Of a stretch of 64,000 nucleotides of DNA, positions 15,840 through 23,313 are shown piece by piece (the stretch's first letter is position 1; every line of letters begins with the position of its first letter). The notes under the pieces were generated by a model. The model searched no databases. It was not told where the DNA came from and was given only the letters and a program-made list of their open reading frames with translations. The DNA comes from Chroococcus sp. FPU101. GTDB lineage: Bacteria > Cyanobacteriota > Cyanobacteriia > Cyanobacteriales > Microcystaceae. The stretch spans positions 1 through 64,000 of the forward strand of contig NZ_BLJI01000011.1 of assembly GCF_017312365.1 (NCBI RefSeq), read 5' to 3'. The translations under genes and the position numbers were made by a program.

Positions 15840-16328
15840 TTAGCCTTTTTTGCTTGGAACTTTGGCTTGTCGTGCCATTTCCTTGAAAGTATTTAAACTA
15901 GGGCCAGGTGTGCGACGGGACATCGTAGAGGCTACCGTAGACTTACTTGCAAAAGCGACCTCAGTTGGGTCAACTTTTCCGTTTTGGCTAACGGTTGGTG
16001 CGGGTTTAGTTTCAGCAACGGGTTTAGCCTCTGCTGCGGGTTTACCTTTTTTATCTTTGATTGAGGTTTTCTTTTCTTTTGCTTTAGGTGCAGCTTTTTC
16101 AGCTTTAGCGTTGTTAACAGCTTTAGCCGCCTTGGCTTCTACAGCTTTTACTGCTTTTGCTGGTGCATCGGCTTTTGAGTCAACAACTTGGCTAATAGTG
16201 TCGGTCGTTTTCTCAATAGCTTTTTCTGCTTGTTCTACTGCTTGCCCTACTACATTTGACGCGTCTTCTTTAAGTTCTCGAAAAAATTTATCTCTTTTAC
16301 CAAATAGTCCTTTTAACTTTTCTAACAT
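15840..16328 (-). CDS. Ala/Lys-rich low-complexity protein
   Basis: The product is 162 residues from the ATG at 16328 (a longer frame starts at 16352). The first 25 residues, MLEKLKGLFGKRDKFF, look amphipathic. Residues 30-120 are an Ala/Lys/Glu/Pro-rich, likely disordered or helical region resembling histone H1 or LEA tails. The end holds a conserved-looking RRTPGPSLNTFKEMARQAK. I recognise this layout as common in cyanobacterial hypothetical proteins but know no function. DNA binding or membrane-surface association are possible readings of the charge pattern. A strong terminator follows it. Confidence 0.65.
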   Translation of the reverse strand: MLEKLKGLFGKRDKFFRELKEDASNVVGQAVEQAEKAIEKTTDTISQVVDSKADAPAKAVKAVEAKAAKAVNNAKAEKAAPKAKEKKTSIKDKKGKPAAEAKPVAETKPAPTVSQNGKVDPTEVAFASKSTVASTMSRRTPGPSLNTFKEMARQAKVPSKKG

Positions 16329-16498
16329 TGAAGTTGACTCCGAATACAACAATAATTAGGAACAATGGATATAAAATATCTGTCACTTGCTGACCAAAAA
16401 TGGACTTTCTTTAAAGGCAGATATTCAACAATTGATTTGATGAAAGATAAAGTAACGATTTGTTACAGTCTTTTTCAACAATCCTTAACGAAAGTTAA

Positions 16499-16522
16499 CT
16501 CTTTTTCCAAAAGGGAAAAGAG
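16499..16522 (+). other. Hairpin CTCTTTTTCC/GGGAAAAGAG
   Basis: A 10-bp stem (one T-G wobble) with loop AAAA lies about 30 bp before the larger structured RNA candidate. It lacks an immediate T-run, so it is not a standard terminator on the forward strand; it may be an upstream element of the same transcript. Confidence 0.4.
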
Positions 16523-16551
16523 AGCTAAACGGAAAAAATATTTTTATTTGA

Positions 16552-16651
16552 CTTTCACTCGTGGAAATCGAGTTAGCCGCAGGCACTGCCTTTGTAAGGC
16601 AGTGTATCGGCTGACCTTTTCTATACATTAGCGGTCTTAGGCCCGTGAAAG
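16552..16651 (+). ncRNA. Candidate structured noncoding RNA
   Basis: A closing stem CTTTCAC (16552-16558) with GTGAAAG (16645-16651) encloses a long hairpin: GTTAGCCG (16572-16579) pairs with CGGCTGAC (16608-16615) and, inside it, GCACTGCC (16583-16590) with GGCAGTGT (16598-16605), loop TTTGTAA. That gives 16 bp in the hairpin with one small internal loop, plus a possible ACTCG/CGAGT stem at its 5' side. It is more G+C-rich than its surroundings. I could not match it to 6S, SRP, RNase P, tmRNA, a group II domain V or a common riboswitch. Strand is a guess based on the downstream gene 320 bp away. Confidence 0.4.
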
Positions 16652-16971
16652 CAAGTGATTACCTTATATATTCCCCGTATTAGATCAAGCCAGATGGCAA
16701 TCACTTTGACAATTCATTGTAATAAATTTTAATGTTGTCACGTCAGATGACTAACTTTACCCTATTTTAAGTCAACAAACTTCACACTATTAAGTTATGT
16801 AAAAAAAGCGAAATTACATTCTCATCTAGGGATCTCTTAAATAAAGGATAAAGTCATTTTTGTTATTGCTTAATGACTTTTGTCCAAAAAAAGACTAGAA
16901 TGTAAAAATAGATACAGATTTTTTAAAAGTTTTATCTGCAAAAAACACGTTTAAGATCAGACTAAGGAGAG

Positions 16972-17370
16972 ATGACAATGAAATTATCTTATCGGGGTGT
17001 CCATTATGAGCAAGTTCCCCTAGCCCTCGATATAAATGAGGGAGAGATTGGCGGAAAATATCGGGGACAAGACTGGAAATATCATTACCCTCGTCACATA
17101 CCCCAACTACAGCCGAAGCTCTATCGTCAGTATCGCGGAGTCGCTTATAGTAGCCGTCCTAATTTGGCAACCGAAACAGCTACACTAACTTGTTCAATAC
17201 CTAATACTCAATCTATTGCTATTGTCAGTGATGAAGTGAGTCAAGTTCATCTAGAGACAATTCGTCGTCGTTTAGAACGTCGTTTAGAAATTGCCTTAGC
17301 GAAAGGGGATACGGAATTAGTTCATTTACTCCAACAAGAATCCCAAGCCCTGAAACTGCCGTTTATTTAA
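16972..17370 (+). CDS. DUF4278 domain protein
   Basis: The 132-residue protein opens with MKLSYRGVHYEQVPLALDI and GKYRGQDW, the hallmark of cyanobacterial DUF4278, then YRQYRGVAYSS. The second half ends in a Arg/Glu-rich helix (LETIRRRLERRLEIALAKGD) predicted to be helical. A good ribosome binding site AAGGAGAG lies just before the first ATG; a second in-frame ATG two codons later (ATGACAATG) is equally possible. Function is unknown. It converges with the gene at 17372, with one base between stops. Confidence 0.8.
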   Translation: MTMKLSYRGVHYEQVPLALDINEGEIGGKYRGQDWKYHYPRHIPQLQPKLYRQYRGVAYSSRPNLATETATLTCSIPNTQSIAIVSDEVSQVHLETIRRRLERRLEIALAKGDTELVHLLQQESQALKLPFI

Positions 17371-19634: not shown

Positions 19635-20390
19635 ATGAGTTCAGAAGCCTTTTTAACGTTTGGAGAACAACCTTTATCCTTAAAGGAAGCTCTTAATTAT
19701 TTGCAAGATGCAGGAAAGCTACAGAATTTCATCATAGATGTTTTACGCCAATATCTTTTAGAACAAGCCATAGAAACTCGAACAGATTTAAAAGTTAGTC
19801 CAGCTTTAACTGAACAGGCGATTATTGATTTTCGTCTACAAAACCAACTCACTGAACCACAAAAATTTCAACAATGGTTAGTAAGTCAAGGGATTGATTA
19901 TGATACGTTTCATAAACGAATTAGTTATAATTTCAAACTAGAAGCTCTCAAAAATACGATCGCTGCACCGAAATTACAAGAATATTTTATCGAACGAAAA
20001 TTAGGTTTAGATCGAGTTGTTTTATCACGAATTATTGTCGATCAGCAAGACTTAGCCGAAGAATTGCGCAGTCAAATTGAAGAAGGTACCGCTTTTGAAG
20101 AATTAGCTCAAGAATATTCCCTTTCAGAAGATCGGATTTTTAAAGGAATGATGGGTTTAGTGAGTCGTGCTGCTATGCCAGATCAACTTAGAATAGCAGT
20201 TGATAAAGCAAAAGAAGGAGATATCATTGGCCCTATGGAATTTGAAGAAAAATGGGCATTATTTCGAGTTGAAAAGTTTCAAAGTGCTTCATTAGAAGAT
20301 AAACAAATTCAACAGATGTTACAAAATGAATTGTTTGAGCAGTGGATGACCGATCAGTTAAGAGAAACACCGATTAAATTACAGGTTTAG
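19635..20390 (+). CDS. Parvulin-type peptidyl-prolyl isomerase
   Basis: This 251-residue protein has a SurA-like helical N-terminus (about 1-130) and a PpiC/parvulin domain (about 130-235). The domain shows VLSRIIVDQQDLAEELRSQI, EEGTAFEELAQEYSLSED, GMMGLVSRAAMPDQL and GPMEFEEKWALFRVE. No signal peptide is present, so it should be cytoplasmic. In other cyanobacteria similar isomerases sit beside type I secretion (HlyB/HlyD) genes, but none lies here. It overlaps the 3' end of cbiO by 17 bp on the opposite strand. Confidence 0.88.
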   Translation: MSSEAFLTFGEQPLSLKEALNYLQDAGKLQNFIIDVLRQYLLEQAIETRTDLKVSPALTEQAIIDFRLQNQLTEPQKFQQWLVSQGIDYDTFHKRISYNFKLEALKNTIAAPKLQEYFIERKLGLDRVVLSRIIVDQQDLAEELRSQIEEGTAFEELAQEYSLSEDRIFKGMMGLVSRAAMPDQLRIAVDKAKEGDIIGPMEFEEKWALFRVEKFQSASLEDKQIQQMLQNELFEQWMTDQLRETPIKLQV

Positions 20391-21222
20391 ATTTTAATTT
20401 CTGTAAAATTTTATTTCGGATTTTCTCAATTTCTTGTTTTGCTGTTGATGTGCGTTCTATTTCATCTAGCAGAGATAATAATTCAAATCCTAATGGTACA
20501 CCTAATTGTAAGGAATCTAAGATTTCATGTTGTTGAAAAACTTCTTGAGGGGTTCCTTCTAAAATCAGTTTACCTTGATCTAAAACAAAAATCCAATCAG
20601 CCCAACTATTCACCCATTCTAAATCATGAGTTGCTATTAATAGTGTTGTACCATTTTCATGAATAGTGTTTAAGTTTTGAGTAAGCTGACGAGTATGGAG
20701 AGGATCAAGATAAGCTGTTGGTTCATCCAATATTAATAATTCAGGTTCTAAAACCATCACATCGGCAAGAGAAACTCGCTTTTTTTGTCCTAAACTTAAC
20801 TGATGAATAGGACGTTTAGCTAGTGAAATTAAATCAAATTCTGTTAAAGCTTGCTCAACTTTCTGAGAGATAATTGGCTCTGAAAAATCTAAATTACACA
20901 AACCGTAAGAAATATCTTCTTCAACCGTTAATGCGATCAATTGTTGTTCTGGGTTTTGAAAGACTAATCCGACTTTTTGTCGATGTTGGGTAAGAGAAAG
21001 ACGATCATAAGTTAATTGTTTTCCTTGCCAAAAAATTCTTCCTTTTTGAGGTTTATATAAACTATTGGCTAAAAGAAATAATGTTGTTTTTCCACAACCA
21101 TTTTGACCAATAACCGCACATCTTTTACCAATTGGAATGCGAAGAGTAAGCCCTTGAATTGCAGTTTGGCTTGTCCCTGGATAAATGTAATCTACATTAA
21201 CGAATTCTAAAAGCCAAGTCAT
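20374..21222 (-). CDS. cbiO: Cobalt ECF transporter ATP-binding protein CbiO
   Basis: A 282-residue ABC ATPase with Walker A GQNGCGKTTLF near residue 38, Q-loop VFQNPEQQL, signature LSLGQKKRVSLADVM, Walker B LLILDEPTAYLDP and the switch histidine in IATHDLEWV. The sequence of a separate C-terminal extension and the gene order identify it as the energising subunit of the cobalt energy-coupling factor importer. It is the last gene of the riboswitch-controlled operon and its start lies 26 bp inside the end of cbiQ. Its 3' end overlaps the convergent parvulin gene. Confidence 0.92.
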   Translation of the reverse strand: MTWLLEFVNVDYIYPGTSQTAIQGLTLRIPIGKRCAVIGQNGCGKTTLFLLANSLYKPQKGRIFWQGKQLTYDRLSLTQHRQKVGLVFQNPEQQLIALTVEEDISYGLCNLDFSEPIISQKVEQALTEFDLISLAKRPIHQLSLGQKKRVSLADVMVLEPELLILDEPTAYLDPLHTRQLTQNLNTIHENGTTLLIATHDLEWVNSWADWIFVLDQGKLILEGTPQEVFQQHEILDSLQLGVPLGFELLSLLDEIERTSTAKQEIEKIRNKILQKLKSKPVI

Positions 21223-22003
21223 TTATACTCAAAATTATTAACATAAAACATCCTAAAATTCCCTCAAATAAATATCGTTTAGGTAAATAATACTTTTGTG
21301 ATGACCAAACTCTAAATTCTCCATTAAAGCCACGTGCTGCTGTCGAAAGAACAAATTTTCGGTAGTATTCCATCGTTTTTTGAAAAAGTTGGCTAATCAA
21401 TAAACTCAGGCTATAAAACCAGCGTTTTTTAGTACGATAACCATTCCGTGATTGTTGAGCAACCCAGAGTTCACTAGCCGTAGATAGCAAGATAAAAATA
21501 AAGCGGTACATCAACAACATTAATTCAGTTAAAATAACAGGGCAACCGATACGACGTAATACCTGTAATGTCTCGGTAAAGGGTGTGGTAAACAAAACAA
21601 AATACAAACATGAAACCGTAGCAAGGGTACGAGCCAAAATTAATATTGCTTGTGTTAAACCCAGATGACTCAGATAAAAATAAGATGAGCCTAAAGTGAT
21701 GCCAAAATAAGTATCGGTTTGAATTAAATTGCGTTCAGTTATCGCTACAACTGAAATGACTAAAGCAGGAAGACTGGTTAACCAAAAGCCAATTGCCACA
21801 CTAAATAAACTGAAATAAATATGACTCGGAATACGGGCATAAACCAACGTCCAAACACTCATCCATAAGGCGATCGCAATTTGTACCCCAGACGGCGCAA
21901 TTAAGGCAATCATCAACACCACCAAAGCAAATAACAGCTTATAATCTGGAGGTAATCGCCTTAAGTGATTATTGTGAGATAGGTTATCAATCCATAAGTG
22001 CAT
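21197..22003 (-). CDS. cbiQ: Cobalt ECF transporter transmembrane protein CbiQ
   Basis: The 268-residue membrane protein has about five hydrophobic helices and the cytoplasmic coupling motifs of ECF T-components: VLRRIGCPVILTELMLLMYRF, and AARGFNGEFR near the C-terminus, the second Ala-Arg-Gly box. It couples CbiO hydrolysis to transport by CbiM/CbiN. It begins 5 bp after the cbiN stop and overlaps the cbiO start. Confidence 0.9.
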   Translation of the reverse strand: MHLWIDNLSHNNHLRRLPPDYKLLFALVVLMIALIAPSGVQIAIALWMSVWTLVYARIPSHIYFSLFSVAIGFWLTSLPALVISVVAITERNLIQTDTYFGITLGSSYFYLSHLGLTQAILILARTLATVSCLYFVLFTTPFTETLQVLRRIGCPVILTELMLLMYRFIFILLSTASELWVAQQSRNGYRTKKRWFYSLSLLISQLFQKTMEYYRKFVLSTAARGFNGEFRVWSSQKYYLPKRYLFEGILGCFMLIILSINDLAFRIR

Positions 22004-22008
22004 AAATA

Positions 22009-22308
22009 CTACTCTTTGGGCGGATTGTTTTGTGATCTTCCTTTGTATAATCCGATCACATAGCCAATGATACCCGCGCCGAGTGCTGCTTGTGAAGCAA
22101 ACAAAAGGCTTTCAATTTCACTACTAGCAGGCTCAAAAAAGGGTTGAAACCAAGGTTTATAGGTGGGGTAAAGGTCTTGAATGGCTGCTTCTGCTTGCCC
22201 ATCAGATCCCCCATATTCGCCACGAACAAAAACAAGGGGAATAACGGCTAGGGTGATGACGGCGATCACAAGTAACCAATTTTGTCGGGCTAATGAAGAT
22301 TTATTCAT
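22009..22308 (-). CDS. cbiN: Cobalt transport accessory protein CbiN
   Basis: A 99-residue protein with two hydrophobic helices (about 10-27 and 68-86) separated by an extracytoplasmic loop containing GGSDGQAEAAIQDLYPTYKPW and FEPASSEIESLLFASQAALGA, the defining pattern of CbiN. It stimulates metal transfer through CbiM. It follows cbiM by 1 bp and is 5 bp before cbiQ. Confidence 0.92.
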   Translation of the reverse strand: MNKSSLARQNWLLVIAVITLAVIPLVFVRGEYGGSDGQAEAAIQDLYPTYKPWFQPFFEPASSEIESLLFASQAALGAGIIGYVIGLYKGRSQNNPPKE

Positions 22309-22309
22309 C

Positions 22310-23056
22310 TTAATTTCTGATTAACTTCAATTTTATTAAGTCTTCTCGGTTATAGGTTTGTAACCAGTTCCACACCAGTACAGTAAGCAAACCTTCACTA
22401 ATGGCTAAAGGAATTTGAGTAATCGCAAAAATCCCTGCAAACTTCAAAAAAGCACCCCCTACACCGCCAGAGGCCGCAGGAAAGGCTAATGCTAATTGAA
22501 ATGAAGTCGTGACGTAGGTCAATAAATTCTCTAAAGCGGATGCTAGGAAAATCGCAAGTTTTTGATTTCCTGTTGAGAGCATTAAATGATAAATTCCATA
22601 CGCGACAAAAGGCCCGACAATTGCCATTGAAAATAAATTCGCCCCAAGGGTTGTTAAACCGCCATGTGCTAGTAACAAAGCTTGGAACAAAAGTACTAAA
22701 CCACCTAATACCGTCATCACCGAAGGGCCGAATAAAATCGCACCAAGTCCCGTACCTGTGGGATGGGAGCAACTACCTGTAACGGAGGGAATTTTTAATG
22801 CCGATAGAACAAAGGTAAACGCCCCACACAGAGCAAGTAGTAATTTGAGTTCGGGATACTGTTGAGTAATACGAATCAGCGATCGTAAACCCAATAAAAA
22901 AAAGGGTAAGGCAAGTATCCACCAAAAAACAGCCCACTGAACAGGTAAAAAACCCTCACCAATGTGCATTGCATAAGCAGGAGTTGCCGCCCCAACAACA
23001 AGATAAAAACTTAGCCCTGTCATAGCGACAAGACTGAATATTTTGTGTTTTTTCAT
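22310..23056 (-). CDS. cbiM: Cobalt ECF transporter S component CbiM
   Basis: The product is 248 residues from the ATG at 23056; a longer frame from 23104 runs into the leader. It begins with a signal-like helix ending GAATPAYA and then [17 protein letters not shown]. In CbiM/NikM proteins the free Met-His at the start of the mature chain helps bind the metal, so cleavage after AYA would expose it. Further family motifs are [22 protein letters not shown] and [12 protein letters not shown] with a metal-site His, and six to seven helices. It is the first gene behind a cobalamin riboswitch, so expression should fall when B12 is plentiful. Confidence 0.92.
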
Positions 23057-23148
23057 TGTGATGTACTCCTTACACAACAGAAAAGTAAGGCAGTACTGGC
23101 GCAAATAACAAGAAATCTGATTGCATCCGTACCTCGCAGACTTAGTAA

Positions 23149-23273
23149 TAGGTTGGCGGGCATTCTGACTGAGAATAATTGCTTACTCTTTCACAGTTGC
23201 GGGACAGCGTTGGATTCTCACCAATCTTTCCCCGTTTCCTCTAGCGGCTGCTCCCCACTAGAACCAACTTTAA
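23149..23273 (-). promoter_or_regulatory. Cobalamin riboswitch upstream of cbiM
   Basis: On the minus strand the leader reads AAGTTGGTTCTAGTGGGG, GCAGCCGCTAGAGGAAACGG, GGTGAGAATCCAACGCTGTC, CCGCAACTGTGAAAG and the B12 box AGTCAGAATGCCCGCC (23155-23170), closing with CCAACCT pairing back to AAGTTGG. This is the full conserved core of the AdoCbl-type cobalamin riboswitch. It ends about 90 bp before the cbiM start, leaving room for an expression platform that controls transcription or translation of the cobalt importer. Confidence 0.95.
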
Positions 23274-23313
23274 TGTAATGCTAAGTCTATCATTAACTGG
23301 TCTTAAGTTTGAC

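Follow-up and report, generated by a model that had tools for sequence, protein, structure and literature searches.

Very small mobile repeats are reportedly known from Nostoc, where Elhai in 2008 is said to have described SDR elements of 21-27 nt with compensated secondary structure and nesting. In IS200/IS605 elements, a guide at the foot of a hairpin pairs with two tetranucleotides, one adjoining the left end and the other closing the right end, as outlined in the available part of one account (PMC6006769), and the target is chosen via base pairing according to excerpts of another (PMC5934647). Non-autonomous IS200/IS605 derivatives of the PATE type insert 3' of a short target that is not duplicated, and combine a hairpin with guide-like pairing with the cut sites. 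The double-foot REPs of TnpAREP (RAYT) subclass 2.4 are, in the accessible sections on them, cyanobacterial short palindromes with complementary feet, copies of which lie inside reading frames (PMC6006769). The palindromic elements of Rickettsia (RPEs), given as about 150 bp (PMC10969869), also lie in frame inside protein genes (PMC10969869, PMC3733652; both available in part).

The element described here was found in a window of 64,000 nucleotides (the whole stretch of DNA analysed) from Chroococcus sp. FPU101. It belongs to a family of miniature insertion elements that sit directly 3' of AC, have two hairpins and are scattered in one cyanobacterial order, and it is filed under a known kind, the miniature palindromic mobile repeats. 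It resembles the double-foot REPs in being a short cyanobacterial palindrome with complementary feet and copies inside reading frames. However, the foot of these REPs is GT[AG]G, while that of the element is mostly GTCA or GTGA, and the element has a second, 5' hairpin closed by the target, which the consulted part of the REP account does not describe (PMC6006769). With up to 23 matches in one genome the element is, as expected of a REP, a dispersed hairpin of 21-65 nt in many copies; copies flanking a RAYT gene were not found at the RAYT and Y1 loci searched. It was not filed as a REP because the GT[AG]G tag was tested and is carried by only one of 68 copies. With the PATE-type derivatives it shares the insertion behind a short target without duplication and the hairpin with guide-like pairing, but it appears to use one guide for both ends, in a unit of 45-57 nt. 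The SDR elements, as reported, are likewise very small cyanobacterial repeats with compensated structure and nesting, but at their reported size they are shorter than the element (about 45-57 nt). The RPEs, to judge from the available text, differ in host, sequence and size; the CGTC tag of the REP-like RPEs is absent from the element, whose copies are in Cyanobacteria and whose target and empty sites are defined. No description of the family was found in searches of the literature on cyanobacterial small dispersed repeats, repeated elements, RAYT/REP and in-frame palindromes, with the REP consensus figures (PMC3733652) and the SDR sequences standing outside the comparison, and the exact consensus strings occur solely in six unrelated papers.

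The window locus and its empty site

The initial annotation had drawn attention to a strongly structured patch, explained by no listed gene and matched to none of the common RNAs and riboswitches considered, in which an upstream hairpin, a closing stem and a two-part hairpin with an internal loop were read as a candidate structured RNA. The patch itself is real. The region 16499-16671 folds at -62 kcal/mol, compared with -37.38 +/- 4.41 kcal/mol for 200 shuffles (z -5.58, no shuffle as low), and all three structures are present, the two-part hairpin (hairpin 2 in Table 1) having 8 + 10 bp and a 3x2 internal loop. No listed gene accounts for the patch, which lies between a minus-strand ORF (15840-16352) and a DUF4278 ORF whose start (16972) is 357 bp downstream of the element. 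An 88-aa ORF crossing the element (16365-16631) was taken as chance because it has no Pfam match and the insertion is absent in the sister genome. The Rfam search of the patch gave no family at either gathering or relaxed thresholds: at the former, nothing in the window lies over the element, and at the latter the gap has matches far under threshold, none of them credible over the element. Neither a tRNA or tmRNA in the window nor a terminator in 16300-17000 was detected. The sole Rfam match in the window is a cobalamin riboswitch elsewhere (23138-23283, minus strand, 48.9 bits), upstream of what reads from the ORFs as a cobalt-transport-like gene set (20374-23104).

Table 1. Features at the locus, numbered from the first letter of the window
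Feature	Position	Strand	Remarks
Upstream hairpin	16499-16522	+	CTCTTTTTCC-aaaa-GGGAAAAGAG; host sequence, outside the element; altered, weaker form in sister genome G001
Closing stem, 5' arm CTTTCAC	16552-16558	+	host sequence, outside the element; present in element-free G001
Host target TCAC	16555-16558	+	5' of the insertion; retained in the G001 empty site TTTCAC-CTT (hyphen at the joint)
Hairpin 1	16557-16573	+	host AC + TCG, loop TGGAAAT, CGA + GT
Inserted element, 57 bp	16559-16615	+	empty site in G001; matches of models R1/R2 at 16562-16614
Shared GT	16572-16573	+	can pair with target AC, closing hairpin 1, or with terminal AC, closing hairpin 2; putative guide
Hairpin 2	16572-16615	+	outer stem GTTAGCCG/CGGCTGAC, internal loop, inner stem 16583-16592/16596-16605; fold and covariation (37 copies)
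Closing stem, 3' arm GTGAAAG	16645-16651	+	host sequence, outside the element; present in G001

The reading as one RNA belonging to this locus did not hold. A DNA search of 58 related genomes gave matches in three, the genome itself (G000), G001 of the same genus, and G003. In G001, the sister genome, both flanks match at adjacent positions and the middle is absent, TTTGACTTTCACCTTCTATA being aligned with TTTGACTTTCAC, the 57 bp and CTTTTCTATA in the window. The closing stem and the upstream hairpin are both host sequence outside the insertion, and the upstream hairpin forms in both genomes (-12.4 kcal/mol vs -9.1 kcal/mol in G001). The z-score of the fold is -4.9 for the filled region, -0.8 when the element is excised, -0.06 for the sister genome and -5.2 for the element alone. 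The non-random fold signal is the insertion; once this is removed, the host closing stem is unremarkable. The element starts after the target AC and ends with, and includes, a terminal AC; the AC can be assigned to either side, and there is no target duplication beyond this AC. One genome pair alone is not sufficient to tell gain from loss, but loss from the sister is unlikely because of the other copies. In the window, the insertion lies in a divergent intergenic region and is probably old, carried there as a neutral passenger.

Anatomy and covariation of the copies

The length is 53 or 54 nt in 58 of 74 copies, and typically about 45-57 nt. There are two hairpins per copy with one shared GT; in IS200/IS605 each end has a subterminal hairpin with a guide of its own. 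Across copies hairpin 1 reads AC-CGC-GGAAG/T-GCG-GT, its AC coming from the host target, and hairpin 2 reads GTCATCG-CAGG-CACTGCC-loop-GGCAGTG-TAC-CGATGAC. All three inner pairs of hairpin 1 are formed in 57 of 61 copies, by five stem types of which CGC/GCG accounts for 49; pairing was one of the criteria for the boundaries used in this count, which does not include 12 irregular loci. The outer stem of hairpin 2 is variable (GTGAACG/CGTTCAC, GTCACAGG/CCTGTGAC, GTCGCAG/CTGCGAC and others). Its 5' foot in 68 copies is GTCA in 44, GTGA in 12, GTCG in six, GTTA in three, GTGG in one and something else in two, and neither GTAG nor CGTC was seen in any of them. A smaller subtype (L104, L180, L182) has just GAA from the target to the GT.

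The copies vary in sequence yet retain the two hairpins. Over 37 copies the covariation score is 0.526, compared with 0.154 +/- 0.016 in shuffles (0 of 500 as high) and at most 0.109 in slid controls; 95.6% of the cells are paired, and changes on both sides are found in 10 of 13 pairs (6.9 in shuffles). The number of further pair types is unexceptional (20 vs 17.4 in shuffles, 45/500). Kinship among the copies inflates these shuffle tests, and the 37 rows of the alignment (A3) were fitted to a model built from six of the same rows. Of the 38 loci entered, L154 fell under the threshold. Near-identical copies of genome G052 (L021, L024, L027, L033, L036, L039, L114-L116), truncated, weak or altered copies (L018, L105, L106, L120, L121) and chance pattern hits had been excluded. 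The compensatory changes in relatives that the initial annotation had set as a test are present, but they are supplied by dispersed copies, the orthologous site in the sister genome being empty.

In two G052 copies (L120, L121) hairpin 2 has turned into a perfect palindrome, once by each arm, and in a third (L118) the loop of hairpin 1 is inverted. Such changes are as expected from template switching within hairpins.

Dispersal, target sites and copies inside genes

Other places with the core CAGGCACTGCC...GGCAGTGTACCG were found in G000, G001 and G003 by the same DNA search. Model R1, built from six copies (alignment A2), matched in 8 of 78 relatives, with 12 matches in G000, nine in G001, 23 in G052, three in G017 and one each in G002, G003, G043 and G050. 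Model R2, built from 37 copies, matched in 41 of 291 genomes of the order, corresponding to 20 of 122 genera; in a sample of 244 genomes of the phylum it matched in 5, each belonging to the window's order. Copy numbers from the R2 scans are lower bounds (20 and 23 candidates scored per genome). The copies have unrelated flanks, and G052 contains near-identical ones. Full copies also occur in Calothrix parasitica NIES-267, a Pleurocapsa MAG and a Chroococcidiopsidaceae MAG. A pattern scan of named genomes gave 31 stretches, 11 of them cyanobacterial. The three cyanobacterial loci given to R2 scored 70-77 bits, and the 20 other stretches, scoring at most 17.1 bits (E 0.12), were regarded as chance. 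There were no exact pattern matches in viral contigs and no match in phages, and among plasmids one record matched with one query and none with another.

When the copies are delimited by the model, independently of pairing, 60 of 65 have the dinucleotide AC directly before them (background 5.0%, p 4e-72). Position -4 is T in 56/65; TGAC precedes 36/65, and most copies stand behind either TGAC or TTAC. G follows the element in none of the 65 and in one of a further set of 30, which was picked by a pattern that contains AC. Excluded from the 65 were the window copy and L013 (shifted register), L032 (ortholog of L037), L036 (contig end), irregular or GAA-type copies (L017, L104, L106, L119, L180, L182) and duplicate sites (L044, L161). 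Copies of the GTGA type are mostly behind TGAC or TTAC and not TCAC, the third target letter thus being independent of the guide.

For a further 12 copies, from G000 and G001, the corresponding site was sought in the other genome of the genus. Two have exact empty sites (L034, L040) and three near-exact ones with changes at the joint (L011, L019, L020). The sites of L025 and L030 are contiguous but diverged, L023 is a diverged copy common to both genomes, L029, L102 and L107 have no counterpart, and L038 has a 29-base match elsewhere only. No readable empty site shows a duplication beyond AC, the shared AC formally permitting one of 2 bp. L032 and L037 are a shared copy inside an ORF.

When the flanks are rejoined, nine of 74 copies prove to lie within an ORF of at least 100 aa that runs across the joint. 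Their length is divisible by three in eight of the nine, compared with 29 of the 65 others (one-sided Fisher p 0.014; in the script the boundaries of 11 copies were set by hand). Seven are read through in frame with no stop (L102, L108, L119, L171, L172, L174, L177), and the ORFs of L018 and L117, which are broken by the insertion, look like chance ORFs. Judged by eye rather than by a search, the host genes of L102 and L119 are presumably sulfurtransferase-like and HypF-like. The pattern fits survival of in-frame insertions, by analogy with the RPEs as the available part of that account presents them (PMC10969869).

Other small repeats are found in and around the copies. A second hairpin repeat, CTTGCTCCGTCC...GGGCGGTGCG, is nested in the element loop in L273 and L255 (2503-2629) and is solitary elsewhere (L260, L262, L270), also in the window's own genome (L260, G000:C8:108962-109007). 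A third dispersed repeat of about 28 nt, GTGATGCGAAGCGAATCCTTTAGGGCTT, stands alone or beside the second (L263, L268, L277, L285 and others). In long forms of the element the outer ends are kept and the loop of hairpin 2 contains further hairpin repeats; these forms measure 102-104 nt in L309, L310, L312, L315, L326 and L332 and 223-302 nt in L299, L322 and L330. The long-form copy L256 (G052:C12:138-264) is identical in 127/127 positions to L255 on a Chondrocystis plasmid (AP018284.1), and since the flanks are also very similar the two are a shared region and no independent insertion. The plasmid form was rejected as a parent RNA and is read as a copy whose loop has taken up other small repeats. 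There are also solo 5' hairpins without hairpin 2, mostly CGCGGAAKGCGGTSA directly behind TGAC (L286, L297, L305, L351, L356, L359, L365, L370, L374, L375). They are either remnants or an even smaller unit, and the letters SA in them were fixed by the search pattern and need not mark the true edge.

Mode of movement and rival explanations

We put the probability that the patch is a dispersed, once-mobile palindromic element, and not a non-coding RNA of the window locus, at about 0.95. As to how it moved, we lean slightly towards a non-autonomous single-strand-DNA transposon family of the IS200/IS605-REP type. The enzyme would be a Y1 (HUH) transposase acting in trans; having bound hairpin 2, it would cleave 3' of AC at each end of the element. 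Both cuts would be guided by the shared GT at the base of hairpin 2, which would close hairpin 1 by pairing with the target AC and hairpin 2 by pairing with the terminal AC. Excision would then rejoin TNAC with the right flank, and the freed piece could reinsert behind another TNAC. This proposal is weakened because the Y1/RAYT loci searched yielded no transposase gene that carries the element and the third target letter is independent of the guide.

The Y1 transposase (PF01797) is present in all seven other element-bearing genomes and in all 14 copy-rich genomes searched, and was not detected in G000 despite its 12 copies. Y1 genes are common, and their co-occurrence with the element is therefore no evidence of partnership. 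No convincing model match was found in 30, 14, 55 and 25 Y1/RAYT loci, with two weak matches each among the 14 and the 55; these are overlapping sets with about 3 kb per locus that in the copy-rich genomes cover a subset of the Y1 genes listed. Weak matches at L126 (10.1 bits with R1, 18.3 bits with R2) and L192 (13.9 bits) were rejected on reading; L129 gave 10.9 bits. A larger element enclosing a gene was not seen among 90 left-end loci, which represent 76 distinct sites. Here the distance to the complementary right arm was taken and the first 150 bases were read if irregular, some loci stopping at contig ends. Genuine right arms lie at distances of up to 302 bases, the intervening sequence containing other repeats, and arm matches at 545, 1329, 1816 and 2070 bases were discarded, being of 7 bases with the rest of the arm absent. 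No HUH-like motif was found in ORFs of at least 90 aa within about 3 kb of ten solo left ends. No autonomous relative that has these ends together with a Y1 gene was seen, but its absence is not established since the genomes are drafts and part of the loci were covered.

A narrower form of the transposon reading, which we hold tentatively, is that of a minimal single-guide, single-strand transposon of 45-57 nt in which the same GT alternates between target AC and terminal AC. Two mutually exclusive hairpins would define both cuts, and some cyanobacterial enzyme would mobilise the element in trans. If so, few DNA elements that move precisely would be as small, and it would have been retained repeatedly as an in-frame protein insert.

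The main rivals are RNA-mediated spread and a divergent REP family. According to the first, which we consider unlikely, the repeat moved via a small hairpin RNA copied back at AC-ended sites, a kind of spread said to have been suggested for the cyanobacterial SDR repeats. The preservation of structure by compensatory change, the small size and the nesting of other tiny repeats in the loop speak for it, but the precise target and the missing duplication fit the single-strand-DNA route as well, and DNA and RNA hairpins are indistinguishable from the present results.

The second, rather less probable still, takes the copies as single hairpins that have an altered tetranucleotide at the foot and are moved by a RAYT; hairpin 1 would be incidental. 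The size and the bulged hairpin are REP-like, cyanobacterial double-foot REPs end in the complementary feet GT[AG]G/C[TC]AC (PMC6006769, as excerpted), in-frame intragenic REPs are known from what is available of another paper (PMC3733652), and several element-bearing genomes have RAYT-type genes. Against this stand the feet themselves, with GTAG in 0/68 and GTGG in 1/68 copies, and the lack of any RAYT match in G000 and of any model match at the RAYT loci searched. Subclass-2.4-like RAYTs were rejected as partners, 9 of 10 inspected loci having GTAG hairpins of their own, which agrees with the published account (PMC6006769), and L234 none that is clear; so was the RAYT of G052 at C73, which has other repeats. 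This RAYT-like gene (L078, G052:C73:22076-22612) carries the repeats GCGAGCATCTTGCTC in its flanks and in its own reading frame.

That the structure is a cis-regulatory RNA or sRNA of the window locus, such as a 5' leader of the DUF4278 ORF, is highly improbable, though a role gained after insertion is conceivable: the strong fold and the position 357 bp upstream of the ORF start are outweighed by its absence at the same place in the sister genome despite conserved flanks, by the same structure at unrelated loci and inside genes, and by the lack of a terminator-like site. An integron attC site, considered for the bottom-strand GT at both junctions, was rejected, as the attC core requires GTT and the targets do not keep it.

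A strong orphan structured-RNA signal with genuine covariation can thus be a dispersed insertion element, and covariation among non-orthologous copies should therefore not be read as a non-coding RNA. The dispersed element adds a case of in-frame insertion of very small elements into protein genes, and with a cyanobacterial family whose ends, target and empty sites are defined, the movement of very small repeats becomes directly testable.
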